A stretch of 28,981 nucleotides of DNA from a virus. The notes beneath the pieces are model-generated. The model saw only the letters and a list, made by a program, of their open reading frames with translations, was not told the DNA's origin and ran no database searches. Below, one piece after another: positions 1,342 to 25,359 of the stretch. The position numbers and the translations under genes were made by a program. Position 1 is the stretch's first letter. Each line of letters opens with the position of its first letter. Location of the stretch: positions 1-28,981 of the IMG/VR virus record IMGVR_UViG_3300017697_000071; one strand, given 5' to 3'.

Positions 1342-1342
1342 T

Positions 1343-5293: not shown

Positions 5294-5305
5294 ATCTCTC
5301 TCTCC

Positions 5306-8467: not shown

Positions 8468-8469
8468 AA

Positions 8470-9570: not shown

Positions 9571-9571
9571 T

Positions 9572-11490: not shown

Positions 11491-11924
11491 TCTTCTTCAC
11501 CTCTACATTTGATACAGGAGGCGCAATTCTCTCCGTCTGTCCATAGGTCATCCCAAGTAACATAATCCGAATGACCGCCACATCCTGCACAATCGGTGTA
11601 GTCTTCGTAACTACCCCATTCGTTGTATGTTTGATGTGTCTTACCGACCAAACCATGTTCTCGGTTCTTTTCGTTATCTACAAACTTTTTAGTGCAACCC
11701 GGAGAGCCGGTGTTCCTGTAAGTTTTCCAGTCTTCAAAGACAGTCCTTTTGGTTACATTGTCCCAGTTTATTTTTCCACCTTCTTGTTTCACCAAGTCCA
11801 GTTCTTCATCTACGCAGTGCTGACATGCCGCCATCGGAACATACTTATTGATACATTCCGGCCCGACACCTCGTTTGACGCTTTTCTTCGCAGTTAATTT
11901 TGCATTACAGTATTTACATTTCAT
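11487..11924 (-). CDS. Cys-rich zinc-binding protein, 145 aa
   Basis: Starts with MKCKYCNAKLTAKKSVKRGVGPEC, the recognisable form of a small zinc ribbon common in phage and actinobacterial proteins (DUF6011-like: CxxC-x-L-S-x-RGxGPxC). Further cysteine pairs follow: CQHC near 34, then C76 alone, then CAGC (about 112-115) and CASCIKC near the C-terminus, so two or three zinc sites are likely. The middle is charged and Trp/Tyr-rich without an obvious fold. It lies 5 nt after the DNA polymerase stop codon and would be co-translated with it. It may bind DNA or replication proteins; that is inference. Confidence 0.65.
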   Translation of the reverse strand: MKCKYCNAKLTAKKSVKRGVGPECINKYVPMAACQHCVDEELDLVKQEGGKINWDNVTKRTVFEDWKTYRNTGSPGCTKKFVDNEKNREHGLVGKTHQTYNEWGSYEDYTDCAGCGGHSDYVTWDDLWTDGENCASCIKCRGEEE

Positions 11925-11928
11925 ATTA

Positions 11929-14277
11929 TTACCATCCGTATACTTTGGGCATAGCCGCCCCGCTCGCTCTTTCTAAGTCCCAGTCAAGGGCTTTGAATAT
12001 AGGCTTAATTTTAGCCTTGATAAGTTTGTCAACCATGAAGTCATAGTTTAAGGAAAAGCCCTGTAAGTCGCTTTCTTTCTCATAAGCAACTACATCTGTC
12101 GCAGGTAAACCATCGGGAGACTTGTCGACATAGACATGATTCACACTACTACCTTCTCCAAGTAGGGGGCCGTCAGTGATATGCTCATTGTAGTAAATGG
12201 CCGCTTTCACTCCGCCTCCTATCACCGCATACTTATCAGTAGATTTCGATAGTCGAGTCGTTTGAGTAACCTCACCCAAAGTTACATCGCCTCGCTTGAT
12301 ACGCTTAGACAACGGCCTCACCAGCCCAATGACTTCTTCTTCGTCAGCACCTGTGCATATTGCAGTGAGAACATCGTTCTCAAGGTTCTTTGAGATAGGA
12401 GCCAGCGTGCTGATTTTACCCCATCGTGCACTCTTGACCTTACCTTCGTCTTCGGGAGGGTATGAACATATACCGTAGTAGAGGTTCTTACCACCAGTAA
12501 TCCAGTAGGGCATGTAAGCCTCAAACTCAACGATGAGATGGCTGGCATCATGCTCACGCTGAACAGTCTCAGTGAGATGCTTAGCGAGAGCCTTAGCCTC
12601 GTCAAAGGGGACTTGGACAAACGCCGAATCAGTGTGCCCGTAGAGGGCACTGTAGCCTTGATTCTGCGACTCCTCCATTAGGAATCGGATAGCCTGCCGT
12701 CCGCAGGCGGTGATAGCCGAAGCGATGTCAAAGTCACACCAGCCCCAGTAGGAACTGGCAGTCATACCGTATAGGCTCGCCATGACTCGCTTAACTGCAA
12801 GTTGTAATGTGTTCCAGCCGTTTCTCTCATTTTCAGTAGAGGCTTCACGCATTCTTCTTTTGTATTCATCACGGAGTTCAAACATCTCCGTAACCATACT
12901 TGGTAGGAGTGCAGGTACTCCTTGTTGCCAACAGGTGCCATCGGGTAACTGTCGAACATTCTCTTCGTCTGCCCTGCTTGCAGGGACTTGAGTTTCCCAC
13001 GACAGGTTATGCGACAGGATGAGTGATGGGTAGAGACCCTTGTAGTCAACGCACCCTACGCCCTTATAACGACCCGGCTTAGGAGGAGGTATGAAAGCCC
13101 CCTCGTATTCTTGCTTTTCTTGGTCTGTCTTTGTAGGTGCTTTCCACTCAGTTCTACGCTGTAGTAGCCCTCGTGCAAATCTCGTAACATTATGACAGGA
13201 GGAGAACCTCACGCCACACAGTCGCTGTAGCGACAAAAAGAAATTGAGGACATGGTTATTCTCATCTATTTTCTTGAGAAGCAAAGTGTCTTGCATACAG
13301 TAGTCGACATAATCATCGAACCGCTCAGTCCAACCAGTGAACACATCCATCTCAAACTTACCACCCAAGTTACAAGCCTCTGCGATAGTCTGTAATTTGA
13401 GGTTCTTCAATTGAGGGTTACCGCTGTCTTTCCATACACGCTCAAAGCCACTACCGCTCCTTACAGGAGAGGCTGTGTCGAAGCATAGTCTGCCGATGAT
13501 AGGCTGGTCGACATAATCATACGAGCCCTTGCTCGGTCGCAATACTCTACCGAGGGGGCTGAGCCTGCGAAAGTTCTTGAGGCGGTCAATCAAGTGTGGT
13601 AAGTCAGCCCACATGATAGCGTGAGCGACAAATACATCGGGGTTACATTCATCCATGTAACTAAGGAAAGCGTCGTGCATCTCATACTCCGAGCCGTAGA
13701 GATGACGCTCATAGGTGAACTTAGTCGGAACACCGTTGACTTCATACTCTACTTCTCTCTCTTCTTCATAGTAGTCCATATCATAGAGACCGTTCGGGTT
13801 ATGCTTTTTCCAACAGAAAGAGACATAACGATTGTTGTAGTTGTCAATGACAGCCATGACTGTTGTCTGCTTGGACTTCGTGCACCATTCAAGGTCGAAG
13901 TGCCAAACCCTTGGTTTCCATTCGGGCATCTCTTTTACATTGTCTATGAGATACCTGTCCTCTAAACTGAGGTCAGCCTCCCATGTCTTAAGGAAACGCC
14001 TTGCGATGTCCTTGATGTCTCGCTGTCTGTATGCGTATACCTTGACGAGTGTCTCTCCAGTTCTCAACGCTTCTGCTGTATCATTCCAATCAACGGATGA
14101 CCCATAGAAGTCCCCAAGGACACGCTCCATGTATCGGTGGCTGGTGCTTGCAGGCACCCAAAAGTAGGGTCGAAAGTCCGATACCGTCTCTTCAATGAGA
14201 TTGCCCTCAGCATCACGCCACCTCTTGTAGATGTGGTCGGGACCTTCGGGGTCGGGACGGTATGTGTCGACAATCAT
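11929..14277 (-). CDS. Family B DNA polymerase
   Basis: Replicative DNA polymerase with a 3'-5' exonuclease domain, 782 residues. I start it at ATG 14277 (MIVDTYRPDPEG): AAGAGGAGGAAT lies just upstream, and the longer frame (from 14340) would overrun a coupled 25-aa gene. Exonuclease motifs: HFDLEW (D128, E130), VAHAIMWADLP (D225; the usual Asn five residues before it is Ala) and YCMQD (Y326, D330). Polymerase motifs: A, VDYKGLYPSLIL (D411); B, KRVMASLYG (K496, with Ala in place of the usual Asn); C, YGHTDSAF (D550 kept, first Asp of DTD replaced by His). The metal-binding aspartates D411 and D550 are both present, so it is probably active. It pairs with PCNA just upstream in the same operon. 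Confidence 0.95.
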   Translation of the reverse strand: MIVDTYRPDPEGPDHIYKRWRDAEGNLIEETVSDFRPYFWVPASTSHRYMERVLGDFYGSSVDWNDTAEALRTGETLVKVYAYRQRDIKDIARRFLKTWEADLSLEDRYLIDNVKEMPEWKPRVWHFDLEWCTKSKQTTVMAVIDNYNNRYVSFCWKKHNPNGLYDMDYYEEEREVEYEVNGVPTKFTYERHLYGSEYEMHDAFLSYMDECNPDVFVAHAIMWADLPHLIDRLKNFRRLSPLGRVLRPSKGSYDYVDQPIIGRLCFDTASPVRSGSGFERVWKDSGNPQLKNLKLQTIAEACNLGGKFEMDVFTGWTERFDDYVDYCMQDTLLLKKIDENNHVLNFFLSLQRLCGVRFSSCHNVTRFARGLLQRRTEWKAPTKTDQEKQEYEGAFIPPPKPGRYKGVGCVDYKGLYPSLILSHNLSWETQVPASRADEENVRQLPDGTCWQQGVPALLPSMVTEMFELRDEYKRRMREASTENERNGWNTLQLAVKRVMASLYGMTASSYWGWCDFDIASAITACGRQAIRFLMEESQNQGYSALYGHTDSAFVQVPFDEAKALAKHLTETVQREHDASHLIVEFEAYMPYWITGGKNLYYGICSYPPEDEGKVKSARWGKISTLAPISKNLENDVLTAICTGADEEEVIGLVRPLSKRIKRGDVTLGEVTQTTRLSKSTDKYAVIGGGVKAAIYYNEHITDGPLLGEGSSVNHVYVDKSPDGLPATDVVAYEKESDLQGFSLNYDFMVDKLIKAKIKPIFKALDWDLERASGAAMPKVYGW

Positions 14278-14279
14278 TT

Positions 14280-14357
14280 TTATTCCTCCTCTTGACACAC
14301 CATTGAATGTTCGATGGGTAGTACTACCTTCGCTCCGCATCTCTTACAGTATACCAT
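14280..14357 (-). CDS. 25-aa CxxC mini-protein between PCNA and DNA polymerase
   Basis: Very short reading frame starting 2 nt after the PCNA stop, with GAGGAGGA upstream, and ending TAA 2 nt before the polymerase ATG. The peptide begins MVYCKRCGAK and has C4, C7, H17 and C21, enough ligands for a single CCHC zinc knuckle. It ends QEEE, and its last codons (GAGGAGGAA) form the ribosome-binding site of the polymerase. The gene may be a real micro-zinc-finger or mainly a leader that couples polymerase translation to PCNA. The cysteine spacing favours a real product. Confidence 0.55.
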   Translation of the reverse strand: MVYCKRCGAKVVLPIEHSMVCQEEE

Positions 14358-14359
14358 GT

Positions 14360-15121
14360 TCAGTCCTCCTCGTATACTTGGTCTATGACGACCATGAGAA
14401 AGTCAGTTTCCGGTTGCTCAAGAATAAGAACTGTCTCATCACCAGTGTGCAACTCAAGGTTACCTACCGGCAAGTTGTTGATAAGTTCCGGTAGCCACTT
14501 GTCAAATGCTGACCTTACAGGTATTCCTGTGGCTTCTACTTGAGTGAGTGGTGCTTTAACAAACATTTTACCCGTAGCACTTTTACCACCACGGATGATG
14601 AACTGCTCGCCATCTATGTCGAACTCAGTCTTACATGCGAACTTGTCACCCAACACCTTCTTGAATCCGGTTGCGGGTTTCAGCGATTCTGCTGAGACTT
14701 GGGCGTGGTGGGTCAACGGTTTGTTGAACCATGTCCGCCACATACTTTCTCTTGATTGCTCAATGGTCTTAGCCATGAGTCCGACCTTTGTCTGCGACTC
14801 AATGTGAGAGGTAGTAGGTAGTTGTAGACTTGAGTTGCCGGAGCGAATGTGTAGTGTCCCGGTCTTACCTTCTTGAGTGAAGTTAAGTTCCGGTGTTTTG
14901 TCCGTAGACAGAAAAGACCTCACCTTTGGTATGTCCGATATGTAGAGACTACCGGTGCTTGTAGTGTCGCAGTTTGTCTTTCTATAGATGTAGTGTGTGC
15001 TCTTAGCAACAGCGGCATGTATAGATTCACTCGACACAGCGATGGCGATGTCTGCCAAGTCCTTTCCGAAACTGGAGAGGAATGCTCCGAACTTATCTCT
15101 GTTAATCGTAAACTGTGTCAT
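14360..15121 (-). CDS. Sliding clamp (PCNA-like)
   Basis: 253-residue PCNA-family processivity factor that would encircle DNA as a trimer and tether the viral polymerase. Length is the family norm (about 245-260). The N-terminus (TINRDKFGAFLSSFGKDLADIAIAVSSESIHAAVA) matches the first PCNA helix-strand unit. The C-terminal strand region (ETVLILEQPETDFLMVVIDQVYEED) matches the end of domain 2, including the acidic tail. Sequence identity to cellular PCNA appears low, so the call rests on layout, length and the RFC/PolB context. A good ribosome-binding site (CGGAGATATTATTATG) precedes the ATG. The repetitive 154-bp gap upstream probably carries its promoter. It is the first gene of the PCNA, mini-protein, polymerase and onward transcript. 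Confidence 0.8.
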   Translation of the reverse strand: MTQFTINRDKFGAFLSSFGKDLADIAIAVSSESIHAAVAKSTHYIYRKTNCDTTSTGSLYISDIPKVRSFLSTDKTPELNFTQEGKTGTLHIRSGNSSLQLPTTSHIESQTKVGLMAKTIEQSRESMWRTWFNKPLTHHAQVSAESLKPATGFKKVLGDKFACKTEFDIDGEQFIIRGGKSATGKMFVKAPLTQVEATGIPVRSAFDKWLPELINNLPVGNLELHTGDETVLILEQPETDFLMVVIDQVYEED

Positions 15122-15275
15122 AATAATATCTCCGTGAGTAACAGGTGGGGGGAAAAGGTTCGTAGGTGTAACCGATAAAAAGCCCCCCTAAAAAAGGATA
15201 AACTACTATCTCCGAAACAGAATGGATTTTCCTTTTATTACTGGATAAACCCCCATGTGAGTTACTGTTTGTTAT
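15122..15275. promoter_or_regulatory. 154-bp repetitive intergenic region, probable promoter/regulatory hub
   Basis: The largest gap in the leftward block; I see no credible ORF in it. It contains TATCTCCG twice (15127-15134, 15207-15214), GGATAAAC twice (15196-15203, 15243-15250), GTGAGTAACAG and GTGAGTTACTG (15134-15144, 15257-15267), and a G6 run (15147-15152) that can pair with a C6 run (15183-15188) around an inner GGTT/AACC pair. On the minus strand a T-run (CCTTTTTTA) could terminate the Sak4-like gene's transcript. CTTTTTATC (minus strand) could be the TATA element for PCNA. Confidence 0.5.
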
Positions 15276-15284
15276 TCAAATAAC
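15271..15284. repeat. Palindrome at the end of the Sak4-like gene
   Basis: GTTATTCAAATAAC is a perfect 6-bp inverted repeat with a 2-nt centre spanning the stop codon of the 350-aa ATPase gene. It could be an operator half of the adjacent regulatory region or part of transcript end formation. It is short, so chance is possible. Confidence 0.3.
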
Positions 15285-16328
15285 ACCGTCCCGTAGTTCG
15301 GGTAGACCATACCATTGGGCATCCTCTCCCTTCTTCGTGACAAAGTAAAGTCGCTCTTGGTTGAGTAGGTTCGGATTGGTCTTCTGCTTGAAGAACTCAG
15401 CCGTATACCTCACTTCTCCTGTGAGTGAACCGTCAGTGTTACGCACAGGCTTACCACTCACCCAAATGATTTGAAACATGTCTTTGTTACCGCTCTTTTC
15501 CCAAGCGAACTTCCAACCGTTATGACCGATTTTACCCTCTTTGTCCTCTTTGAGGTGGGTTTCCCAGTATACATCGACACCGAGTCGGTTCAACTTTTGA
15601 CAGATAGCAGTCAGTTGCTTGAAACGAGTAGAACGGATGTTCCAGTTCCAGCCAATCTCAGCGTTGAGTTTAGCGTGGCTCGCCTCGACAGCATCAGTAG
15701 CCTTCATGTCAAGGTCGTAGATTTTCATACATGTGATACACATCTCATCGAATTGGTCGACACCAGTGACGATGAATGACTTCAAGAGTCGCCCTTCAAA
15801 TCCGGGCTGTGCTTGACGCTCTGCATATTCCATAGCGAACTTACCAGTCTCCATTACACGGTTGTAACTTTCAAGGTAGTTGTAAGCGGTTTTGTCTTCT
15901 TGTTGCATCACCCACGGAGAGAATATCCGGAAGGAAGGGTCATCACGATAGTGAGCCTGCTTGCAGGACAGTCCGCCGTTGTCGTGGTCTACTACAATGG
16001 CAATGCCTTCGGGCCACTTATGCTTATGCGCATCGAATGCAAGGCCAGTCTTACCCGTTCCTTCGTGTCCGACCAGCGCACACATAACATGGCTTGGTTC
16101 GATGTCGGGCTTTTCGCCCTGTGAAACCATCTCTGCTTGAAGCATAGGGAAACGGCTGATAAAGTCCTTCGATGTAACTTGGACCTCTACAGGTTTCGCT
16201 ACTTCTGTGTTGACTGCGACAGGCGTTTCCACTACAGCGGCAGGTTGAGCCACCGGTATTTCGGGGACTCTCAAAGCCTCGTTGTTCTGCGTATCGTTCC
16301 CTTCTGCTAATGCGTCCCAGCCACTCAT
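15276..16328 (-). CDS. RecA/RadA-like P-loop ATPase (Sak4-like recombinase)
   Basis: 350-residue single-domain ATPase. Walker A is GHEGTGKT (residues 87-94); Walker B is the strand SFIVTGVDQFDEM with D191. A strand VVDHDNGG follows the first helix, and LGVDVYWETHLKED carries the histidine strand usual in RecA-fold proteins. The N-terminal 55 residues are Ala/Val/Pro/Glu-rich and probably disordered. This matches phage Sak4-type single-strand annealing/recombination ATPases and short RadA homologues. It overlaps the putative SSB gene by ATGA (16325-16328), and Sak4-type proteins usually work with a cognate SSB. Role: strand annealing or exchange during viral replication and repair. The RecA-like fold is certain; the Sak4 subfamily is likely. 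Confidence 0.8.
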   Translation of the reverse strand: MSGWDALAEGNDTQNNEALRVPEIPVAQPAAVVETPVAVNTEVAKPVEVQVTSKDFISRFPMLQAEMVSQGEKPDIEPSHVMCALVGHEGTGKTGLAFDAHKHKWPEGIAIVVDHDNGGLSCKQAHYRDDPSFRIFSPWVMQQEDKTAYNYLESYNRVMETGKFAMEYAERQAQPGFEGRLLKSFIVTGVDQFDEMCITCMKIYDLDMKATDAVEASHAKLNAEIGWNWNIRSTRFKQLTAICQKLNRLGVDVYWETHLKEDKEGKIGHNGWKFAWEKSGNKDMFQIIWVSGKPVRNTDGSLTGEVRYTAEFFKQKTNPNLLNQERLYFVTKKGEDAQWYGLPELRDGVI

Positions 16329-17575
16329 TGCCCATCACCCTTGAATTGATTCAAACTTGTATCACCGCTACCACCCGCAGGGCGAGCAGTTCGGTGAGGA
16401 ATGTAAACGCCGAGTGCTGACATACTGGCCTGCATCTCGTTGTTGTATGGACGCAACTTCAAGCGACCGACAACAATGACATTGGTCTTTTCATTGTAAG
16501 GGCGGAGATTACCGTTCGCATCTGTGTATTCAAACACTTTGTCTCGGTCATGCATAGTGCCCGAAACCCAAACGGTTACAGGGTCCACGCCTTGTCGGTA
16601 GATGTTGAGTCGGTAAGAGCGACCTGTAGGGTCATACTCGCTGTCCATTGGTTCCTTGTTGAGGAATGTGACATAGCCACTTGTTACTACAATTGGATTG
16701 AGTGTCATACCGCTCTTGGTCGTGATTTTACGCTCCGGATGTGCGTCGATGAGGCCACCGAGGTCAACATACTCGTTATGCATTTTAGTGTTGACAAGAA
16801 GTCGCTCAGCACTGAACGCTTTTCGGAGGTTTTCCGGTAGCCATTCGTCTGTATATTCGGCAGTCTCGTGAAAGTTGTTGTTCGTGTAAAGGATGTCTTG
16901 TCCTTTCTTGGTAGGCTCAATGACGCTGATTCGACATGCGGTCCAGTTCGTGTAGTTGGCCTCCATAGCCTTACCTTGTAGACTGACTTTCCACATTTGA
17001 ATGTCGCCGCCACCTTCTCTTGAACCCAAGAAGTAAACAGCCTTGCTGAAACTTGTAGGTGCAATTGGCTGACGCTTGCCGTCTCGTGTATTGAGTAGGC
17101 ACAGAATCATGTCGTCGTGTTCAAATCCAAACCAAGGTAACTCGCTACCGTTGACTCGTTCGTCTGTAGGCTCACCGTTGATGCACCATTTACCTTCTTT
17201 CGCAGTAAGGATTCCGACATGGCCTCCATCAATTGCTTGGTCTCGGTTGTTACGGAACATGTTCATTGCCTTGTCATGCGCTCCTTTTCGGTTGTCTCTT
17301 GGTTCGTCTTCTGTTCCTACAAACATACCTGTGTATTTCACTGTGTCACGCTGTCGTCCACTGCTTGCGTTTCTTGTTTCAATTACAAATTGCTCGGACC
17401 ATTGGCTCAAGTAAAACGGGTCTTCGTTCAGTGATTGTTCAACAAGGAACTCGGCCTTCAACCAAGCGTTAAACTGGTTTGCGGCCTCTCCTACATCAAT
17501 TCCCATTTTCTCTGCATACCCACTGAGCCTTTCGACTACATCTGCGGGATAACTTTTGTTTTCGTTTTCATTCAT
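16325..17575 (-). CDS. Putative single-stranded DNA-binding (RPA-like) protein, 416 aa
   Basis: No enzymatic motif is visible. The protein is beta-rich. The C-terminal third (NPIVVTSGYVTFLNKEP, GRSYRLNIYR, PVTVWVSGTM, NVIVVGRLKLRP) has the strand-turn pattern of an OB fold. The end is Gly/Asp-rich (GGSGDTSLNQFKGDGQ) like the flexible acidic tails of SSBs. An earlier block (HVGILTAKEGKWCINGEP, FGFEHDDMILCLLNTRDGKRQP) may be another OB domain. It sits between RFC and the Sak4-like ATPase and shares ATGA with the latter. That is where a viral SSB/RPA is often found, and no other SSB occurs in the window. The SSB role is inference; the gene itself is certain. Confidence 0.6.
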   Translation of the reverse strand: MNENENKSYPADVVERLSGYAEKMGIDVGEAANQFNAWLKAEFLVEQSLNEDPFYLSQWSEQFVIETRNASSGRQRDTVKYTGMFVGTEDEPRDNRKGAHDKAMNMFRNNRDQAIDGGHVGILTAKEGKWCINGEPTDERVNGSELPWFGFEHDDMILCLLNTRDGKRQPIAPTSFSKAVYFLGSREGGGDIQMWKVSLQGKAMEANYTNWTACRISVIEPTKKGQDILYTNNNFHETAEYTDEWLPENLRKAFSAERLLVNTKMHNEYVDLGGLIDAHPERKITTKSGMTLNPIVVTSGYVTFLNKEPMDSEYDPTGRSYRLNIYRQGVDPVTVWVSGTMHDRDKVFEYTDANGNLRPYNEKTNVIVVGRLKLRPYNNEMQASMSALGVYIPHRTARPAGGSGDTSLNQFKGDGQ

Positions 17576-17579
17576 TTTT

Positions 17580-18521
17580 TTATTCCTCCATATTTTTTCT
17601 TAGTCTTGCGACAAAATACTCAACAAATGACGCATCATCATCTACCCACTGAGGGGACAGGATGACAAATTCGCCATATGTGAGCATGAAATCATACCAA
17701 TCATCAGCACTCTCCATGAGAGGCTTGGCACGATAGCGGAGACCTTGTAGGACTCCGAAGCGTGTTTGACCGGACTCTAAGGCTTGGGTCAAAAACGCCG
17801 ATAGTTTGGGGAAATCATTCCCCATGAGATTGAGAGCGGCTTTGTTGAGATAACTTGTATCTCTCTTAATGCTCTCTTTGAGTGCGTCGGGTTCTGTTGG
17901 TAACCCGTCGATAATGTCAATGGCTTGTCTTAGCGAGCCACCTGTGAACTTGATAAGTTGCGGCAAGAACTGTTTCCACTCTTGCGGCAGTTGCTCTTGG
18001 TCTATGATATATTCAAGACGAGCAGTATTGTTATGGTCTATACCCTTGAAGAAGAATGTGAGACAGCGGTCTCTAATTGCAGTGTGGATGGGTGCTATGT
18101 CATTAGCGGTGAGGATGAACACAGTAGTAGAGTGGCTCTCCTCCATGGTTTGACGCAGTGCCTTTTGAGCAGGAGCAGTGAAACTTTCAAATTCATCCAA
18201 GAACTCTATGCGTCGACTGACACCGAGACCCTTCTGTTTACTGATACCTTTGAGTTCACGAGCCGAGTCGATTCCTCTGTCATCACTCGCATTGGTAACT
18301 CTAAAGTTCACAGGGTCGAAGAACTCACCGAGCATGTCCTTTGCCAATGCATATGCCGCACTGGTCTTACCGACACCCGGTGGACCGACGATGAGGATGT
18401 TTGAAGGGCATGTATCAATCGTCCAAGTCTTTGCTGACTTAGCGAAGTCTACACAGCCTACCAAATCATCTAAGGTAGTCGGTCGGTATTTCTCTCTCAA
18501 GTTCATAATTATCTGCTCCAT
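17580..18521 (-). CDS. Clamp loader ATPase (RFC small-subunit-like)
   Basis: AAA+ ATPase that would load PCNA. Motifs, numbered from the ATG at 18521: NLREKYRPTTLDDLVG (7-22, the RFC box), Walker A VGPPGVGKTSAA (45-56), NASDDRGID (77-85), Walker B RIEFLDEFE (104-112), sensor 1 FILTAND (135-141), IRDRC (149-153) in place of the canonical SRC arginine-finger motif, and GGSLRQAIDIIDG as sensor 2. At 313 residues it matches RFC small subunits. A second in-frame ATG at 18506 has GGAG 9 nt upstream and begins MNLREKYRP, closer to the usual RFC start. The ATG at 18521 lies inside the shared promoter element and would fit leaderless translation. No RFC large subunit is present in the window. Confidence 0.93.
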   Translation of the reverse strand: MEQIIMNLREKYRPTTLDDLVGCVDFAKSAKTWTIDTCPSNILIVGPPGVGKTSAAYALAKDMLGEFFDPVNFRVTNASDDRGIDSARELKGISKQKGLGVSRRIEFLDEFESFTAPAQKALRQTMEESHSTTVFILTANDIAPIHTAIRDRCLTFFFKGIDHNNTARLEYIIDQEQLPQEWKQFLPQLIKFTGGSLRQAIDIIDGLPTEPDALKESIKRDTSYLNKAALNLMGNDFPKLSAFLTQALESGQTRFGVLQGLRYRAKPLMESADDWYDFMLTYGEFVILSPQWVDDDASFVEYFVARLRKNMEE

Positions 18522-18549
18522 TTCCTTTATTGTCTTATTATAAGGGTTC
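18518..18549 (-). promoter_or_regulatory. Shared 32-bp promoter-like element, copy A (RFC gene)
   Basis: On the minus strand it contains the palindromic TATA core CTTATAATAAG preceded by GAACC (possible BRE) and followed by an A-rich tract ending GGAAATGG. It is identical over 32 bases to copy B and has one mismatch to copy C. It lies 4 nt downstream of the stop of the ligase-like gene and immediately before the RFC start. The distance from the TATA core places transcription start at or near the first ATG of RFC. Confidence 0.75.
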
Positions 18550-18553
18550 GCCC

Positions 18554-20005
18554 TTAGCCACTCATTTCTATGAGGTCTGTCAACTGTGATACATCGCTAT
18601 ATCCAAGTCCATCGTCAAGGTAGTGAACCTCTGCCTTTTGCAAGGACAGTTCGGTTAAGGAGAACTCGTTGAGTTCTACAACTACTACCATAGCATACTC
18701 GTCGACAGGTAACCAGTCCTGTCCAGCGAGTATACCTTGATGAGCGAGCCGCTGACGCATGTGCTGAGCAACGGTCACTGTTAATTGTTCCTGCCCTACC
18801 TCGTAGGTTTCAAACCCATCCAGTGCTGACAGGCGAACATGTGTCTCAAACTGCTCGTCTCGCTTGACAGCAGTGACGAGTAGGTTGATGTGGAATGCGT
18901 CTTTGAGTATAGCCCAGCCTCCGTCGCCTCCAAGTTTAATTGGACCGGCATCGACAAAGCGTAACTTCTCACCTTCATCCAGTGTCTCAAGCATATTGCT
19001 GAAATCTGTAGAGAGGGGTACAAACTTACCGGACTTGACCGGAACGGTCAACTGTAACTTACTAAGCGTATCAGCCCTTTCGCTGTAGTTCGACTTGTAA
19101 ATATCCCAGTCATCATCCAATGCGAATATGTCTGTGACATACTTCACTTGTATACCGTCTACCTCGACTTCAAGAATACATTCTTGTTCGATAGGTATGT
19201 TCAGTGCCTTACCCATCATCTGTTTATGGCGGTTGTAAAGCACTCCTTTGAAAGTCCCCTTTGGGAACTCGGTGATGTGTAGGTAACGCCTTGAGCCCGA
19301 CACTACATCTGCGTAGACATCGGCTGGCGTGGTGAGTTTGTCCCACGCTCTATAGACCGGGCCAAGGAAAGCCTGTCCCGGTTGCATAGTGCGCACCTCT
19401 ATGTCTTCTGTGTTGACAAATAACCGCTGAATTATTTCAGTCGGTGTCATCGTTTGGAGCATGATATTGATTGATTGGAGGCTCTGTGCTCTCCCTTCGG
19501 TAGCGTATGAAACGATTTGTAGGAAACGATTGACAGGCATCGGTGGCCTTTCATCAGTCGCTCTACCCCAAAACAAGAGTGCTTCTCTCTCATTCATTTT
19601 GCTGGCAATTTTGAAGAAGCCCTCGTCTCTTATCCTCGACATGAGATTGAGAGCCTGCTTGACTGTCATCCCTTCGCCTCCGTATTCGGATGACTCAAGT
19701 GCAAGCATAGGCACGATTGGCTTACCTGCTAATGACTCATCCCATACAAGGGGAGAGATGGATAGTTTGAGACAGACATCATCACGCAGTTCACGGAATG
19801 ATATGAGTTGCCTTGGGTATTTTGAATACTCCGGATAGAACATGTCAATCAGTTGACTGCTATCGTCAATGGAGTTCTTGACTCCCTCTCGGATGATGTC
19901 AACGATTTGCCTAAAATACTTGGAGCGTTCTTCGGCATCGGTCATGTAGTTCCGATACAGGTTACGCAACTTCTCTGCGATGGTTGCCGCCTCAGCCAGT
20001 AACAT
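18554..20005 (-). CDS. ATP-dependent DNA ligase-like protein lacking the catalytic lysine (tentative)
   Basis: 483 residues, the length of archaeal or viral ATP-dependent DNA ligases. The layout also resembles them. A helical N-terminal domain comes first (LISFRELRDDVCLKL, GEGMTVKQALNLMSRIRDEG, an EREALLFWGRA segment). A linker MQPGQAFLGPVYRAW then stands where ligases have a 'PG-x-P-x-PMLA' element. VYADVVSGSRRYLH follows where motif I (K-x-D-G-x-R) should be. YVTDIFALDDDW with a later SER is like motif IIIa, and DGGWAILKD is near motif IV. A beta-rich C-terminal part could be an OB domain. The nucleotide-accepting Lys is replaced (Val at about 234) and the motif IV Glu-Gly is lost. If the homology is real, this is a non-catalytic ligase fold. 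Otherwise it is an unrecognised replication-associated protein. It overlaps the PC4-like gene by 14 nt. Confidence 0.4.
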   Translation of the reverse strand: MLLAEAATIAEKLRNLYRNYMTDAEERSKYFRQIVDIIREGVKNSIDDSSQLIDMFYPEYSKYPRQLISFRELRDDVCLKLSISPLVWDESLAGKPIVPMLALESSEYGGEGMTVKQALNLMSRIRDEGFFKIASKMNEREALLFWGRATDERPPMPVNRFLQIVSYATEGRAQSLQSINIMLQTMTPTEIIQRLFVNTEDIEVRTMQPGQAFLGPVYRAWDKLTTPADVYADVVSGSRRYLHITEFPKGTFKGVLYNRHKQMMGKALNIPIEQECILEVEVDGIQVKYVTDIFALDDDWDIYKSNYSERADTLSKLQLTVPVKSGKFVPLSTDFSNMLETLDEGEKLRFVDAGPIKLGGDGGWAILKDAFHINLLVTAVKRDEQFETHVRLSALDGFETYEVGQEQLTVTVAQHMRQRLAHQGILAGQDWLPVDEYAMVVVVELNEFSLTELSLQKAEVHYLDDGLGYSDVSQLTDLIEMSG

Positions 20006-20267
20006 CTGTTTCCCTCAGTTCATCGAGGGCATGTTGGATTGCTTTGGCAAGTGTGCTCGCATCCTCAAGTGTAAGTCTCACGCCCTCTCTCGTGAAACCT
20101 TCTCCCTTGGGGTGTTCGATAGTGCGCCGTGTGCGTATGTCGATTTTGGCAGGAGCATTACCTACTGGTGTAGATACACTCATGACAACCTCGGCCTTAC
20201 CTTTCCACTTGGATGAGGTGTTGGGCACACGCCACTTGATTACTTGGTCGAAGCCTCGCATACTCAT
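19992..20267 (-). CDS. PC4-like ssDNA-binding/transcription coactivator-type protein, 91 aa
   Basis: I start it at ATG 20267 (MSMRGFDQVIKWRVP) in an ATGA overlap with the upstream gene; a longer in-frame extension to 20363 merely reads through the coding region of that gene. The protein has basic beta strands (KWKGKAEVVMSVS, AKIDIRTRRTIEHP) and then GFTREGVRLTLEDASTLAKAIQHALDEL. This resembles the PC4/YdbC pattern of 'vDIR...GxxLt-x-eq-x-L-x-x-ai' ending in a helix. Such proteins bind ssDNA as dimers and act in transcription or replication. Similarity is at motif level only. It could instead be an unrelated small DNA-binding protein. Confidence 0.5.
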   Translation of the reverse strand: MSMRGFDQVIKWRVPNTSSKWKGKAEVVMSVSTPVGNAPAKIDIRTRRTIEHPKGEGFTREGVRLTLEDASTLAKAIQHALDELRETDVTG

Positions 20268-21019
20268 TCCTCTTCTTGCGAAAGGTATGTCTCTTCGACC
20301 ATGACAACTGCCCCTCTTACATGAGGTGGTAGTAGATGACCGTTGAATATAGTGCCAGTGCAAAGTATATTGACATTAGTTGGGCTACCATTAACACCGT
20401 TGACGGCATCCATGTGCTCAATGATTTCGGGACGGCTCAGTGCAGTCAGCCTGTATTCATAGGCAGGGTCCGTAGCAGGGTCATCAGCGCATGTATAAAC
20501 AAGCATTGCATCGTCACCTGCAAGGAGTCCGTAGTCATAGGGTTCCAGCGGAATAGTCTTGTCACACACAGGGCATGATACAACAACAGACCACTGCTCG
20601 ACCATCTCCCTCTCTCCTGTGGGTAGAATCATTTCTTCATCACCGTCATGCGTCCACTTACCTTCTTCAAGCGGGAACGCCGACAGAGGTGTTTCGCATT
20701 CACATTTCCAATTCTGTGCCATCTCTTGGCGAAGCATCATCTCTTGCATGTGTTGTTCTTGAGGCGAGAGATGCTGAACATCCTTGAGTTGGACTTTGCT
20801 CTCGTCTACCTCCCAGCCTACACCTTCAATCAAGAGTCGCATACGGATTCTTGCTTGGGCACTGGTCGGGTTGTTCTCTTGAGAGATGAGAGACAGTTTG
20901 GTCTCTCCCTCTTTCACATACGAGAGACCAAGACCAGCCGGTTGCCAAAGGCCACCGTCTCGTAGTCGCTCAAGTATCATGCGTGCGCTTTCTTCGGGGT
21001 TCATTTCTTCTTCATTCAT
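20264..21019 (-). CDS. Cys-rich hypothetical protein, 251 aa
   Basis: No family recognised. The start lies in a coupled junction with a 40-aa gene; the end is ATGA-coupled to the PC4-like gene. The N-terminus is acidic (MNEEEMNPEESARMILERLRDGG). A long helix rich in Met and Gln follows (LSPQEQHMQEMMLRQEMAQNW). It leads into two cysteine pairs, CEC (about 124-126) and CPVC (about 161-164), that could make one zinc site. The C-terminal region has Cys near YTCADDPAT and NILCTGTIF. The product ends QEEE. Neighbours suggest a replication or transcription accessory. Confidence 0.6.
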   Translation of the reverse strand: MNEEEMNPEESARMILERLRDGGLWQPAGLGLSYVKEGETKLSLISQENNPTSAQARIRMRLLIEGVGWEVDESKVQLKDVQHLSPQEQHMQEMMLRQEMAQNWKCECETPLSAFPLEEGKWTHDGDEEMILPTGEREMVEQWSVVVSCPVCDKTIPLEPYDYGLLAGDDAMLVYTCADDPATDPAYEYRLTALSRPEIIEHMDAVNGVNGSPTNVNILCTGTIFNGHLLPPHVRGAVVMVEETYLSQEEE

Positions 21020-21134
21020 TTTTCTTCATCTCTTTTTCTTTTAGAAACCATTCATAGAACAAATCTATTCTTTCTCTTTGTGATTCACGGGTTATGATGT
21101 AGTATAATTCTCTATACATTCCTTCAAACTTCAT
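21012..21134 (-). CDS. Small charged helical protein, 40 aa
   Basis: Short gene filling the gap between the DUF932 gene and the 251-aa gene. GAGGTGA, overlapping the stop of the DUF932 gene, is its ribosome-binding site 7 nt before the ATG at 21134. Its TGA lies inside the first codons of the next gene. The product begins MKFEGMYRELYYIITRESQR and ends in Lys/Glu-rich helix. It has no cysteines or known motif. Gene-like features are the good ribosome-binding site and coupling on both sides. Confidence 0.6.
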   Translation of the reverse strand: MKFEGMYRELYYIITRESQRERIDLFYEWFLKEKEMKKNE

Positions 21135-21145
21135 TCTTCTTCACC

Positions 21146-22657
21146 TCAATGCAGGATTTGACTGAACATAGGGACATTGCTCAACTGTGCTTCGATGGAT
21201 AGTCCGGCTACGCTCTTCTCAGTGATACCGCCAAGTACCTTATGCACTTTGCCGAGTCGCTCTGTGAGAGTAGAGAAGTTGAGAGTTGAACCTTTGAGGG
21301 TCGTCTCGCCATCAGTCCATACCGGTTTATGCGTCATCGCTCCGGTGAGGATATTGTATACATGGTAGAGTGAGCCTTCGTCTTGTTGGTCGACTGCCAC
21401 CCAAGACTCGCTACGGTTTGTCCAACCTTGTCCCATGACTCGCCACATGTGCCCTCGTGTAATCGAAGCCACATTACCTGTGTCATCACGCTTGATGACC
21501 GGCTTAGTAATCAATCCTTTCTTCTCACAGATAGTCATGAGTTTTTCAAAGACATCACGGTTGACTTGAATGTCCTTCATGGATTCTGTTACGAGGATTT
21601 CCCGTGCCGCCGCTTCAATCACGCTCATGATTTGTCCTGCCAACTTGTCAAAGTCGAAGTTACCAAGGACACCCTTCGTGTGCTTGAGGCTCATGAGTTT
21701 CGCTGAGTCTCCCATGACTTGTCCGTTCTCGCAAACGAGGCGTTCTGCTACAGCCTGCACCTTGAATGCTGACGAGCCGTCAAGACTGTTGTAGATAGCG
21801 ATACCGATTCGGTAGTCGCCGTTGTTCTTGAAACCACGACGAGTCCAACCCTTACCAAGAGAGGACTCCGCTTGTTCCCAGTCAACATTGCTGGTGACAT
21901 CTACAAATAATGCTGAACGCTTTCCTTCATCCCAAGCAATCACTTGAGCAGGCCATCCTTTTTCAGCGGCCATGTTGAGAATTGGTCGGTAACCCTTTGC
22001 ATATGGCATAGGGTAGTAAGAGGAACTGAATGTCCCAAGGTAAGCCCCAGCGGGTCGCTTGTCATTTGCATACACTGGGTTGAATATGTGATACGCAACT
22101 GGCGAACCGGCATTGTCGTTGACTCGTGCTACTGTAGCACCAGCATTACCTTCTTCGTGCATGACAAAGGCAGGCTTACGCACTGGTTCAAAGTCCCAGT
22201 TGATGCTCTCGACTTTCTTACGGCCACCGGAGAACAGCATGTTGTCGAATGGTTCATCGGCCATGACAAACTCTTCTTGCCCGTCGTTGCCAACCACTGA
22301 TACAACTGGTGCTTGGATGTTGGGCTCAGTCCACATAGGCACTTCGTCCAATGCTTCTTCGACCAATCCGTTCGGTATGTCTTCGTTGTTTTCCAAAGCA
22401 CCAACGATGCTTAGGTGTTCATCTGTTACATGCAACGGTGCAAAGTTGACCGTCACGGTCCGATACAATGCCAGTCCTCTGTCGCTGTTATCTGTTCGCA
22501 CGAGTAGTGCTACTCTGTCGTTTGAGATGCGCTCAAATCGGGCCACCATTGTTCTTGGTAGTCGAATGCTGTTGACACCCATCAACGATGGGTATTCCAT
22601 TTCAACCAAGTTCGGTGTGCTCTGCGTTATTTTTCCTATCAATACTATGTCGTCCAT
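21146..22657 (-). CDS. DUF932 family protein, 503 aa
   Basis: Matches the phage/plasmid DUF932 family in its middle: PAGAYLGTFSSSYYPMPYAKGYRPILNM, DYRIGIAIYNSLDGSSAFKVQAV and AERLVCENGQVMG, the last being the family's conserved 'R-L-V-C-x-N-G' segment. A helical C-terminal half follows. The N-terminal 110 residues (MDDIVLIGKITQSTPNLVEMEYPSL...) look like a separate small beta domain joined by an acidic linker. The molecular role of DUF932 proteins is not established; they are frequent on mobile elements and in large phages. The gene is the second one after promoter copy B and starts 2 nt after the 60-aa gene's stop. Confidence 0.75.
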   Translation of the reverse strand: MDDIVLIGKITQSTPNLVEMEYPSLMGVNSIRLPRTMVARFERISNDRVALLVRTDNSDRGLALYRTVTVNFAPLHVTDEHLSIVGALENNEDIPNGLVEEALDEVPMWTEPNIQAPVVSVVGNDGQEEFVMADEPFDNMLFSGGRKKVESINWDFEPVRKPAFVMHEEGNAGATVARVNDNAGSPVAYHIFNPVYANDKRPAGAYLGTFSSSYYPMPYAKGYRPILNMAAEKGWPAQVIAWDEGKRSALFVDVTSNVDWEQAESSLGKGWTRRGFKNNGDYRIGIAIYNSLDGSSAFKVQAVAERLVCENGQVMGDSAKLMSLKHTKGVLGNFDFDKLAGQIMSVIEAAAREILVTESMKDIQVNRDVFEKLMTICEKKGLITKPVIKRDDTGNVASITRGHMWRVMGQGWTNRSESWVAVDQQDEGSLYHVYNILTGAMTHKPVWTDGETTLKGSTLNFSTLTERLGKVHKVLGGITEKSVAGLSIEAQLSNVPMFSQILH

Positions 22658-22659
22658 AT

Positions 22660-22842
22660 TTATTCCTGTCCTTTTTTCTTTTCTTTACTTAATGCTTCTA
22701 ATACTTCGTTGTTGTATTCTTCACTCAACGCTTCATAAACACCAGCGACCCTCATGATTGTTATCATAGGTATTTTCTCCAGTATTTCTAAAAGTTTAGC
22801 GTCAAACATTTCATCAGTTATCCATTTGTATTCTTCGTCCAT
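22660..22842 (-). CDS. Small hypothetical protein, 60 aa
   Basis: I start it at ATG 22842 (MDEEYKWITDEMFD), preceded by AAAGAGGAATAAAT. An upstream TTG frame extension covers only Lys/Asn/Gln-rich leader. The protein is helical and acidic (AKLLEILEKIPMITIMRVAGVYEALSEEYNNEVLEAL) with a basic end. The VYEALSEEYNNEVLE element occurs in small proteins of many phages and plasmids, but no function is known to me. First gene after promoter copy B, with an A-rich leader of about 55 nt. Confidence 0.6.
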   Translation of the reverse strand: MDEEYKWITDEMFDAKLLEILEKIPMITIMRVAGVYEALSEEYNNEVLEALSKEKKKGQE

Positions 22843-22896
22843 ATTTATTCCTCTTTGTTTGTTTTTATATTTGTTTTGCTTGTTTCCCAAAACCAG

Positions 22897-22928
22897 CCAT
22901 TTCCTTTATTGTCTTATTATAAGGGTTC
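22897..22928. promoter_or_regulatory. Shared 32-bp promoter-like element, copy B, probably bidirectional
   Basis: Identical over 32 bases to copy A. It lies between the leftward 60-aa gene and the rightward kinase-like gene. Its core CTTATAATAAG is nearly self-complementary, so TBP could recruit polymerase in both directions. On the plus strand the core at 22913-22923 would put a start near 22944, about 34 nt before the kinase ATG. Confidence 0.7.
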
Positions 22929-22953
22929 AGCCTCAGTCTAAGGAAAGTGATAT

Positions 22954-22973
22954 TACGCATCATGTTATGCGTA
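22954..22973 (+). promoter_or_regulatory. Hairpin just before the kinase-like gene start
   Basis: TACGCAT (22954-22960) and ATGCGTA (22967-22973) form a perfect 7-bp stem with a 6-nt loop, ending 4 nt before the ATG at 22978. A ribosome-binding-site-like AGGAAAGTGA (22941-22950) lies upstream, so folding would bring it near the start codon. It could also be a DNA operator. Confidence 0.55.
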
Positions 22974-22977
22974 GGGT

Positions 22978-23793
22978 ATGAGCGGAGCGTTTGAGCAAGC
23001 ATGGGTGCTACTCAAAGCATCCATGCCGCCGTTTGTCCCTCGTAAGGTAGACCAGCGAATAGGTAGTGGTGATTACCGTGTTGCGTTTGAGCAACCGGAC
23101 ACACACCATACTACCAAGTTCGGCACTGGTGAGAAGTTGGCTGATACATTAGTTCTCAACCAACTCGCTGAGTTATATCCCGAAGCATTTGTCGGTGAAG
23201 AACTCCATGCTCTGCCTGTGCATGAATCACAGTTGCCTGCGTTTGCCACGACAGGTAAGCATGGGCCTCTTGGTTACGACCAAGACTACTTCGATGGTTA
23301 CTTCGACTACGGTACAGGTGGTCGTCGTAAAGGTGAATACAATGTTATGCCGCTTACTTACACGCAAGAATTGGGCGAGCCAATTACAAGCAACGAGGAG
23401 ATGAAAACATTCCTCGCTCAAAAATTGTTACAGGACAAAATGCGTGCCAACTATCCTGTCGCTGGTGCACTTGGCCTTGGTGATGTGAAGCCCGAAAACT
23501 GGGCAGTGATGCAACAAGGAGGACTCGACCTCCCCGAATTAAGTGATAAACAAGTCAAACTCATTGACCCGATGTTCGATTACCCAAGGAGTCGCCCGTT
23601 TTACACAGGTGAGTTTTCAAGAGAAGCAAACCGTTTCCGACAAGACATGCCGGAACTAAGAGAGTTTGCTGAGCCTTGGTATAAGGGTCTCGACCAATAC
23701 GAAGACCCTGCACTCGGTCAGCAAATGTTGGACACCCTCATACAGGGTGAGCAACAGAACCTCGACAAAATCACTCAGCCTTTGACTCCTTGA
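22978..23793 (+). CDS. Protein-kinase-like protein, 271 aa
   Basis: The only rightward gene in the 25-kb leftward block. It has a reduced protein-kinase fold signature: a Gly-rich loop RIGSGDYRVAF (27-37), a lysine in HTTKFGTGE (K47), a helix with Glu (LVLNQLAELYPE, E65), a hinge-like YNVMPLTYTQELGEPI (121-136), a catalytic-loop-like LGDVKPENWAV (D169, K171, N174) and a metal-binding IDPMFD (D197). The catalytic-loop Asp, Lys and Asn and the second Asp are all present, so it may be active. The usual His-Arg before the loop Asp is Leu-Gly, as in some atypical kinases and phosphotransferases. A role in phosphorylating host or virion proteins is possible. The C-terminal 70 residues (Asp/Glu/Gln-rich) have no recognised domain. 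The end overlaps the convergent 116-aa gene by 23 nt. Confidence 0.65.
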   Translation: MSGAFEQAWVLLKASMPPFVPRKVDQRIGSGDYRVAFEQPDTHHTTKFGTGEKLADTLVLNQLAELYPEAFVGEELHALPVHESQLPAFATTGKHGPLGYDQDYFDGYFDYGTGGRRKGEYNVMPLTYTQELGEPITSNEEMKTFLAQKLLQDKMRANYPVAGALGLGDVKPENWAVMQQGGLDLPELSDKQVKLIDPMFDYPRSRPFYTGEFSREANRFRQDMPELREFAEPWYKGLDQYEDPALGQQMLDTLIQGEQQNLDKITQPLTP

Positions 23794-24121
23794 TGTCTTG
23801 CTCAAGTTCTTTGAGTCTCCACATCAAGTGTGAGAAACCGGGCTGACCTTTCCACTTAGGGAAACCTCCTGCCATGCCTTTCCACTCACTACCTTCGGTA
23901 ACGGTGTCAGCGTCAATGTTGTAGAGTACTGCGTGCATAATGAGTTTAGTGAGTGCTACTGAGAATGCTTCTTGGTTTGCCACCAGTGTATCGAAACTGC
24001 TTTGTTGACGGGGGCCGCTGAAAACACGGACAACCTCATCTATTTTGTTGATAAGTGCAAAGGCTGACTCATACGATTCGCTCAATACAAACTCGTCCAT
24101 CCAATCTATTTTTTCTTTCAT
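23771..24121 (-). CDS. Hypothetical protein, 116 aa
   Basis: I start it at ATG 24121 (MKEKIDWMDEF), which overlaps the preceding stop as ATGA and has GGAGG 9 nt upstream; two in-frame ATGs further up lie too close to or inside that signal. It is helical, with amphipathic segments (ESYESAFALINKIDEVVRVF, NQEAFSVALTKLIMHAVLYNI), a Gly/Trp/Lys-rich turn (EWKGMAGGFPKWKGQPGF) and a final charged helix. No family recognised. It is the last gene of the 25.3-kb promoter unit and converges on the kinase-like gene. Confidence 0.5.
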   Translation of the reverse strand: MKEKIDWMDEFVLSESYESAFALINKIDEVVRVFSGPRQQSSFDTLVANQEAFSVALTKLIMHAVLYNIDADTVTEGSEWKGMAGGFPKWKGQPGFSHLMWRLKELEQDIKESKAE

Positions 24122-24393
24122 TTCCATTCGCCTCCAAATAATGCAACACAAGGGACAGGTATTCCTCTGTCTCTATACTTGTCTTGCTTGAGTAGTATTC
24201 CTCTCGACCAAGGCTCACCTTGGTCGTTGCGAGAACTATCATCGTTCATTGCGATGATACCCTCGTCTAATATCGCCAACATATTGTCAAGCGTTTTGCT
24301 GTCGCTCGGAAAGAGTTGAGCGAACTTTGTTTGCATTGAGTCTATCTCAATAGTGTGTAGAACAATGTGTCCTGTGTCTCCAAAGTCAATCAT
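24118..24393 (-). CDS. Hypothetical protein, 91 aa
   Basis: Starts at ATG 24393, overlapping the preceding gene's end by 8 nt, and ends ATGA-coupled. The N-terminus has a beta pattern (GHIVLHTIEID); a helix follows (SKTLDNMLAILDEGIIAM) and an acidic, Asn-rich loop. The C-terminus carries a Gly/Trp pair typical of small folded domains. No motif was identified. Supported mainly by tight packing in the operon. Confidence 0.5.
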   Translation of the reverse strand: MIDFGDTGHIVLHTIEIDSMQTKFAQLFPSDSKTLDNMLAILDEGIIAMNDDSSRNDQGEPWSRGILLKQDKYRDRGIPVPCVALFGGEWK

Positions 24394-24799
24394 CCTTTTC
24401 CAACTCCCTTATTCGACTGTTGAGTTTGACAAGTTGTCGCTGAAACTTAGCGACTGCTTTATCAACAAAATCAGCCATCTCGACTTTGAGTTCTTCTCGC
24501 ACTGTTTCCTTTATGTCGGACAACCTACCTTCATATTGCTCAATGATAGGTTCAATGGTATGCTTAGCCGATACTTCGACAACCAGTTCAATGTTGCTGA
24601 ACTTGTCCTCCATGTCCGCTACACGCTTTTCTATAGACAGTATACTGTTTTGACTACTGCGATTTAGTTTACCCATGGCAACTGTGTTGCGTCGGTTACC
24701 GTAGCAACTGGAGCAAAGGTCTTGCCATGCCGCCGCTTGAGAAGAAGTAGGTGAGAACTCACTCTTGCATACTCCGCAGGTCTTCATCACTACCATCAT
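24386..24799 (-). CDS. Zinc-finger/coiled-coil protein, 137 aa
   Basis: Three nearby Met codons (24799, 24796, 24787) precede KTCGVCKSEF. The ATG at 24799 is coupled to the preceding stop by ATGA; the one at 24787 follows a GGTAGTG. The N-terminal 35 residues hold CGVC and CSSC about 20 residues apart, a zinc ribbon. From about residue 50 to the end the protein is a long charged helix with heptad-like hydrophobics (LSIEKRVADMEDKFSNIELVVEV, YEGRLSDIKETVREELKVEM, FQRQLVKLNSRIRELEKDD), indicating a coiled coil and probably a dimer. Such proteins are often DNA-binding or scaffolding. Function unknown. Confidence 0.6.
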   Translation of the reverse strand: MMVVMKTCGVCKSEFSPTSSQAAAWQDLCSSCYGNRRNTVAMGKLNRSSQNSILSIEKRVADMEDKFSNIELVVEVSAKHTIEPIIEQYEGRLSDIKETVREELKVEMADFVDKAVAKFQRQLVKLNSRIRELEKDD

Positions 24800-25317
24800 A
24801 CCAACTCTTTGAGTATAGTTTCAAGCGCAGGATATTTCTGTCGCAATTGATAAAGCGGTGTGTCGAACAACCAGTCTTCTATGACTGACATGATGTCGTC
24901 TCGTGTCGTTCCGTTGAACTCAAGGAGACTACCCAAGGGTATGTCTTCAAAGGTCGGCTTGTCTTTCTTGTTCGCATCTGCGAGTCGACCAGCGAAATCC
25001 AACGGTGGCTCCCATCGCTTATGCTTTATTCTTAACTTCTCTGCTATGTCCTTCGGGTCATAGAGAAGTTCCAGTCCCTTCGGTCCGTAGAGAGTTCTAC
25101 GCCTACCTGCACTGTCTTCTCCTTTCTTCTTGGAAAGGTTACCTTTTCTTACAGCATCGCTCAAGTTTGCTTGAAACGATTCCCAACCACTTATCGTAGT
25201 TGTTCGCTTATCTACAAGTTCATATGCTTCACTTGCACTGAGGAACTCACCGTGTTCGGCAATCAGTCTCGTTGCAAAGTCAGTTTTCTTTTCTCCGTTA
25301 TTCATTTTGTATTTCAT
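24796..25317 (-). CDS. Putative winged-helix protein, 173 aa
   Basis: First gene after promoter copy C, with GGAGG 8 nt before the ATG. The N-terminal 80 residues look like a winged helix: EFLSASEAYELVDKR, then ISGWESFQANLSDAVRKGNLSKKK, then a basic wing RRRTLYGPKGLELL. The rest is mixed helix (DPKDIAEKLRIKHKRWEPPLDFAGRLADANKK) and an acidic segment, ending in two short helices. It could regulate the operon it heads. The winged-helix call is by pattern only. Confidence 0.5.
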   Translation of the reverse strand: MKYKMNNGEKKTDFATRLIAEHGEFLSASEAYELVDKRTTTISGWESFQANLSDAVRKGNLSKKKGEDSAGRRRTLYGPKGLELLYDPKDIAEKLRIKHKRWEPPLDFAGRLADANKKDKPTFEDIPLGSLLEFNGTTRDDIMSVIEDWLFDTPLYQLRQKYPALETILKELV

Positions 25318-25327
25318 TTTCGGTCCT

Positions 25328-25359
25328 CCATTTTCTTTATTGTCTTATTATAAGGGTTC
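25328..25359 (-). promoter_or_regulatory. Shared 32-bp promoter-like element, copy C
   Basis: Differs from copies A and B at one position in the A-rich part; the CTTATAATAAG core and flanks are unchanged. It lies 4 nt past the stop codon of the upstream zinc-finger gene and about 11 nt before the ATG of the 173-aa gene. In this copy the built-in ATG would give only a five-codon ORF, so here it acts as leader, not start. Confidence 0.75.

Follow-up and report, generated by a model that had tools for sequence, protein, structure and literature searches.

A TATA-box element with genome-specific spelling precedes replication-arm operons in related viruses that probably infect marine Group II archaea

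Introduction

Archaeal promoters contain a promoter-proximal (−10 region) element, an AT-rich stretch between the TATA box and the start site. In the archaeal tailed viruses HF1 and HF2, near-identical intergenic repeats, each class of which is limited to one part of the genome, are promoters that are active without other viral genes, and the HF2 TATA box starts 26 nucleotides (nt) before the transcription start (PMC8707807). In SIRV2-type viruses, a virus-specific consensus around the TATA box and the B recognition element (BRE) is common to early genes (PMC11065993), and SIRV1 and SIRV2 have a GTC element downstream of the TATA box (Kessler et al. 2004, to the extent that it is cited in PMC5569661). 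Here, we describe a 32-bp element, GAACCCTTATAATAAGACAATAAAGGAAATGG, which occurs three times in IMG/VR record IMGVR_UViG_3300017697_000071, a linear fragment of 28,981 bases (this whole record is called the window below), and which has counterparts in 17 related records.

The virus encodes PolB, a primase and a PD-(D/E)XK nuclease, and its replication and morphogenesis modules are opposed; its relatives are 92–105 kb long, the window being a 29-kb fragment. Such gene content and opposed modules, in genomes of 90–110 kb, are described for Magrovirales (PMC12999244), and the window and its relatives, which we call magrovirus-like, agree with that description in both respects. The virus probably infects marine Group II archaea. 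Our searches of the open-access literature revealed no previous account of a regulatory element, this one included, in Poseidoniales viruses.

Results

The copies at positions 18518–18549 and 22897–22928, both on the minus strand, are identical at 32 of 32 bases, and the third copy, at 25328–25359 on the same strand, matches them at 31 of 32, with GAAAATGG in place of GGAAATGG. These three copies had been reported in a sequence-only reading of the window, the coordinates, identities and orientation of which proved exact. The 32-mer is the longest direct repeat of the window. No match to it appeared in 100 dinucleotide shuffles of the window (chance expectation 0.00), and the window contained no further copy at up to 12 mismatches. 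All three copies occupy short gaps ahead of leftward operons: copy 1 precedes the RFC operon, copy 2 the operon of p22660 and the DUF932 gene, and copy 3 the operon running from 25317 to 23771. Copy 1 is composed of the BRE-side hexamer GAACCC (18544–18549), the TATA box TTATAATA (18536–18543), AATAAAG (18525–18531) and ATGG (18518–18521), all on the minus strand; the TATA boxes of copies 2 and 3 are at 22915–22922 and 25346–25353. The TATA core had also been described as palindromic, and an 11-bp palindrome, CTTATAATAAG, is indeed present in the window, but relatives do not retain it; we regard it as incidental.

Relatives were gathered through homologues of RFC and DUF932, giving 18 genomes together with the window, each of which was scanned with its own element. 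None of them lacked a TATA element of the common architecture (1 to 7 copies per genome, 54 in total), and the records with a single copy were mostly short or partial; control scans with the reversed motif yielded 0 or 1 match per genome. The shared architecture comprises a variable BRE-side hexamer, a TATA box and usually an AATAAAG-like stretch, and the start codon usually follows ~36 nt past the TATA start. The site before RFC, orthologous to copy 1, is occupied in 16 of the 18 genomes and that before DUF932 in 12, while other copies precede further small replication-arm operons. All copies are on the replication-arm strand, and none was found in the oppositely directed morphogenesis arm; with arm limits placed by hand, 16 genomes had 46 copies in ~418 kb of replication arm versus 0 in the remaining ~400 kb. 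Copies in genomes G013 and G014 that we first labelled as possibly late face in the replication-arm direction, those of G013 at the boundary between the arms and those of G014 close to the end of the contig. Instead of being scattered at random in coding regions, the copies sit before genes, and their recurrence ahead of RFC, DUF932 and other small operons supports the proposal of the sequence-only reading that they represent a shared promoter class rather than a gene duplication. It is the same-gene positions and the architecture that recur; the exact 32-mer, for which a search in relatives had been suggested, is not common to them, and the exact core had no match in all IMG/VR. Among 2.9 million IMG/VR contigs, the strict pattern matched these viruses only, and the loose pattern matched them repeatedly, with 8 unrelated single sites in addition (reversed control, 9).

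The spelling of the element is specific to each genome: AACTGGTTATAAAGAAACAATAAAG in G001 (7 copies), TTATAAAAGACCAATAAAGA in G002 (5 copies), TATATAAAGAACTAACAAAGG in G006 (7 copies), AAGTCCTTATAAACTGACAATAAAGGAAATGG in G162 (5 copies), TTCTTTTATAAAGGTCCTAAG in G165 (2 copies) and TTCTCCTTATAAAGAATCAAAACAATAG in G013 (4 copies). In a 28-nt stretch centred on the TATA region, the RFC and DUF932 copies inside one genome had a mean identity of 0.95, whereas RFC copies of different genomes, or DUF932 copies of different genomes, had a mean identity of only 0.70. When the RFC/DUF932 pairing was permuted 10,000 times among 9 genomes, no permutation gave a value as high as the observed one. Had the two sites evolved independently from ancestral promoters, orthologous copies would be expected to be more alike; the opposite was observed. 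In G161 and G162, which are 95% identical in RFC, TTTTAAAC is present at both G161 sites and TTATAAAC at the same two G162 sites, a difference that we read from these sequences as a recent step of concerted spelling change. The remaining copies in G162 have variant TATA boxes.

Identity between copies of one genome, averaged over all within-genome pairs, was 0.68–1.00 from −6 to +19 relative to the TATA start, with peaks at the BRE-side, TATA and AATAAAG positions. It was intermediate at +20 to +25, peaking there at ATGG, and low beyond ~+25; outside the element, it dropped to ~0.25–0.45 over all relatives. Two further statements of the earlier reading, that the flanks are not conserved and that identity extends far beyond a TATA box and BRE, are thereby borne out, as the constraint spans positions ~−6 to +25 relative to where the TATA box begins. 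Edges as sharp as these would be better explained by selection on a bound site than by duplication or gene conversion, since a conversion tract or a recent duplication would hardly end at the promoter edges or dip at +14 and at +19 to +21.

At most copies other than those of DUF932, the start codon is 34–40 nt past the TATA start, and a Shine–Dalgarno (SD)-like GGAG or GGTG is present near +23 to +29; the DUF932 copies are ~51–97 nt from the start codon. When the HF2 spacing is applied here, the leader is ~10 nt long, with the SD-like motif at its very beginning or cut. Because this type of spacing would place the motif at the edge of the leader, we predict the transcription start only to within ~+22 to +32 past the TATA start. 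The listed start codon of RFC in the window (ATG, 18519–18521) falls within copy 1; in the alignment, however, the RFC proteins of relatives begin at the next ATG, with MNLREKYRP or a close variant, and hence the true RFC start is most likely at 18506, its ATG being 37 nt past the TATA start, and copy 1 is most likely entirely non-coding. Another sequence, GTGGAGGTGACGGCATGA, repeated almost exactly at several sites in several relatives (small-gene arrays L006, L004 and L018), is apparently a ribosome-binding site with a start codon.

In 146 genomes of the order to which the Poseidoniales genome G015 belongs, and which may not be the true hosts, the pattern TTATAA-N5-CAATAAAG (at most 1 mismatch) gave 54 matches versus ~150 for the reversed pattern, the latter total being added by hand. 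Upstream regions sampled from two Poseidoniales-order genomes contained no AATAAAG after TATA-like sites, as judged with crude gene calling and a crude TATA search. The comparison with host-order genomes is good but not final.

The uniform spelling within genomes and the lack of enrichment in host-order genomes suggest that a specific factor may read the whole element, as the sequence-only reading proposed. A viral TFIIB was considered in this role, but no homologue was found in 10 records, the control genomes being positive. Two conserved small zinc-motif proteins whose genes are close to that of DUF932, p20264 and p25364, were considered as candidates; their AlphaFold models were of fair to good quality but had no convincing relative in PDB. 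Comparing protein divergence with element divergence did not make any candidate stand out: the correlation for p20264 was 0.48, little above the 0.35 obtained for RFC, in a set of pairs that are not independent.

Upstream of morphogenesis genes, no repeated motif that could define a late-promoter class was seen, as judged by eye only. Two sequences, CACCCTAATCTTTTTG (L023:16837–16852, minus strand; L038:4962–4977, plus strand) and CCCGCCTCCGATAGTC (L034:18544–18559, plus strand; L121:685–700, minus strand), are each common to two distant genomes, where they lie in larger gaps before morphogenesis-arm genes, and are possible late-arm signals. A scan for bacterial sigma-70 promoters was not informative.

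Copy 1 is located between p18554 and the gene for an RFC-like clamp loader (17580–18506, minus strand), the first gene after it, with AAA and DNA_pol3_delta2 Pfam matches. The remainder of the replication module (3797–17575, minus strand), with a gene order kept in relatives, contains p16325 and genes for Sak4-like, PCNA-like, PolB, PD-(D/E)XK nuclease, primase-like, ERCC4 nuclease, exonuclease and thermosome proteins, the PCNA-like label being based on position and length, without a hidden Markov model match. Transcription of this module from copy 1 as a single transcript is only putative. A gap of ~150 bp without the element (15122–15275) lies ahead of the PCNA-like gene, and gaps of 118–121 bp also precede its orthologue in G001 and G004. 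Copy 3 directly follows p25364 and precedes four small genes, p24796, p24386, p24118 and p23771 (23771–25317, minus strand). Co-regulation had been proposed for RFC, DUF932 and SNF2-adjacent operons; the RFC and DUF932 sites do recur in relatives, but SNF2 is not a target, as it is upstream of copy 3, which heads the operon from 25317 to 23771. The tail-like module (148–3149, plus strand), which is transcribed oppositely and has a weak tail match (PHROG 1887, E = 0.0012), contained no copy of the element in our scans. In G006, the gene after copy g (L032:14984–15943, minus strand) encodes ArdC N-terminal and zincin-like domains of the anti-restriction type, which accords with early anti-defence genes.

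Downstream of copy 2 are a 60-aa open reading frame (22660–22842) and the DUF932 gene (21146–22657; Pfam E = 3.8e-10), both on the minus strand. In the leader between them and the element (22842–22902), a CAAAACAAATA-like stretch is kept across relatives. The DUF932 leaders of G013 and G014 contain a strong CCGGCTC/GAGCCGG hairpin; a conserved hairpin in this leader was rejected, as it was found in only part of the genomes. The gap of copy 2 is shared with a divergent gene (22978–23793, plus strand), which is kept in six relatives, often with a stem-loop just before its ATG. The letters of this stem-loop differ while the pairing is kept (ACGCAT..ATGCGT in the window, CACGC..GCGTG in G162, CACATC..GATGTG in G001), and the closest relatives share a GGAAAGTGATATTAC stretch ahead of it. 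In these, the TATA box of the DUF932 element is ~60 nt upstream and could serve both directions. The product of the divergent gene starts with MSGAFEQAWVLLK, similarly to its relatives, and has GDVKPENW and LIDP motifs recalling kinase loops, without a Pfam match.

Discussion

The element is very probably the core promoter of one class of co-expressed viral operons, read by the host RNA polymerase. In the earlier suggestion of an early-class viral promoter, the promoter-class part is well supported by the sequences, while the temporal class and a dedicated factor belong to the level of inference. Promoter identity is strongly supported by the recurrence of the copies, by their strand and position, by a spacing that is nearly constant, by the sharpness of their edges, and by uniformity within genomes together with difference between genomes; initiation at the element, its timing and a spelling kept by selection would follow from the model given below. 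Together with TBP and TFB, the archaeal RNA polymerase of the host would read an element that begins with the BRE-side hexamer and continues with the TATA box TTATAATA, then AATAAAG as the AT-rich stretch ahead of the start site, and ATGG close to that site. This would switch on the replication-arm operons together, namely the RFC–PCNA–PolB module, the DUF932 operon and the small-gene operon, probably early or in the middle of infection. The uniform spelling would be maintained by selection for a single recognition specificity common to the copies, that of host TFB/TBP alone, or of these and a host or viral DNA-binding protein. Several observations weigh against this model. Positions −3, −1, +14 and +19 to +21 are variable, and a transcription start at the usual +26 to +30 would truncate an SD-like GGAG located near +24. 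The RFC genes of the most distant pair, G013 and G014 (RFC identity 52–54%), have no element before them; of the additional copies, several are weak (c in G008, a and b in G001, and the boundary copies of G013 and G014); and the genomes are related, the counts not being independent.

Two additions to this promoter model differ in what would determine the spelling. The copies could possibly be just strong host-type promoters, each an optimum for the TBP and TFB of its host, so that differences between viruses would be host differences. The TATA box at a near-constant distance from the ATG, the AT-rich stretch before the start site, which is a usual feature of archaeal promoters, and the HF2 precedent are in line with this, whereas the pattern is not enriched in the 146 Poseidoniales-order genomes, which is not decisive given that these may not be true hosts, and the upstream samples of two such genomes lack AATAAAG after TATA-like sites. 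More tentatively, a virus-encoded or recruited sequence-specific regulator may bind the BRE-side and downstream parts, so that the class responds as a block, and its specificity would drift along with the promoters, hence the own spelling of each virus. In favour of it, the letters outside the TATA box, both in the BRE-side hexamer and just past TATA, are spelled alike throughout a genome but differ from one genome to another, host-order genomes show no enrichment of the bipartite pattern, and the small zinc-motif proteins p20264 and p25364 are encoded in these operons. Against it, no viral TFIIB was found in the 10 records, neither zinc-motif protein has a convincing structural relative, the divergence correlation singles out no protein, and the HF2 repeats function without any viral protein (PMC8707807). 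A bolder and rather unlikely version is a per-virus promoter 'dialect' read by a fast-evolving factor, virus-encoded or recruited, which would leave related viruses transcriptionally insulated, and in which the DUF932 copy, often located between divergent genes, may fire both ways.

Readings other than a promoter are very improbable. A repeat that had dispersed through recombination, duplication or gene conversion, and had no regulatory role, would account for the near identity of copies inside a genome, but identity is low just outside the element, the copies face one direction in one arm ahead of genes, and their positions are kept in relatives while the letters change. Hardly more credible is an RNA-level element (a 5′ leader or ribosome-binding signal) or a replication signal, which proximity to start codons at most copies could suggest. 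The TATA box is at a near-constant distance, the SD-like motifs are just after the element and not inside it, and the DUF932 copies, ~51–97 nt from the start codon, indicate that closeness to the ATG is not needed; the presence of several copies per genome argues against an origin.

In its place, the AATAAAG-like stretch corresponds to the archaeal −10 AT-rich element, but here it is a defined sequence and not just AT-rich, and the Poseidoniales-order genomes that were sampled show no enrichment of it. The closest described system is that of the class I and II repeats of HF1 and HF2 (Haloferacalesvirus), likewise near-identical intergenic repeats with a TATA box in archaeal tailed viruses (PMC8707807). 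HF2 class I is confined to the early-middle replication arm, where it heads a PolB-containing transcript, and confinement to one arm and one direction was also found here, as was the conservation of positions in related viruses (RFC in 16 of 18 genomes, DUF932 in 12). However, HF2 promoters were shown to be active, with a start 26 nt past the TATA start, whereas the activity of our element is predicted from sequence; the HF2 repeats are 58 or 29 bp long, contain alpha, beta and gamma motifs and fall into two classes, the second of them late, whereas ours is ~30 bp long and no late class was found; and the HF2 repeats are strongly conserved across the genus, whereas here the copies are near-uniform within each genome and orthologous copies are 0.70 identical between genomes. 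As the sequence is not conserved across related viruses, the element is the same kind of system as the HF2 repeats but not an HF2-type member. SIRV2-type viruses share with it an own consensus per virus at several genes of one genome (PMC11065993), but their sequences mostly head small anti-defence genes of crenarchaeal viruses, whereas here core replication operons are headed, together with the one ArdC-like gene; in addition, their TATA/BRE core is similar and the outer parts vary, whereas here the BRE-side letters vary too. The GTC element of SIRV1 and SIRV2, as far as it is described in the citing paper (PMC5569661), is also a virus-specific short motif after TATA, with different letters from the AATAAAG-like stretch, which varies between viruses. 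New in comparison with the HF2 and SIRV2 kinds are the spelling, the association with a conserved replication operon in tailed viruses whose hosts are inferred to be marine archaea, and the concerted change in spelling between related genomes at fixed positions.

Poseidoniales are abundant archaea of the surface ocean, and their magroviruses are so far known from metagenomes only. The element provides a simple sequence test of promoter-class membership in such uncultured viruses and marks genes that are likely expressed together, including small genes with a possible anti-defence function. If the dialect reading is true, promoters and factor drift together; the concerted change of promoter spelling among related viruses makes co-evolution of promoters and their factor testable.

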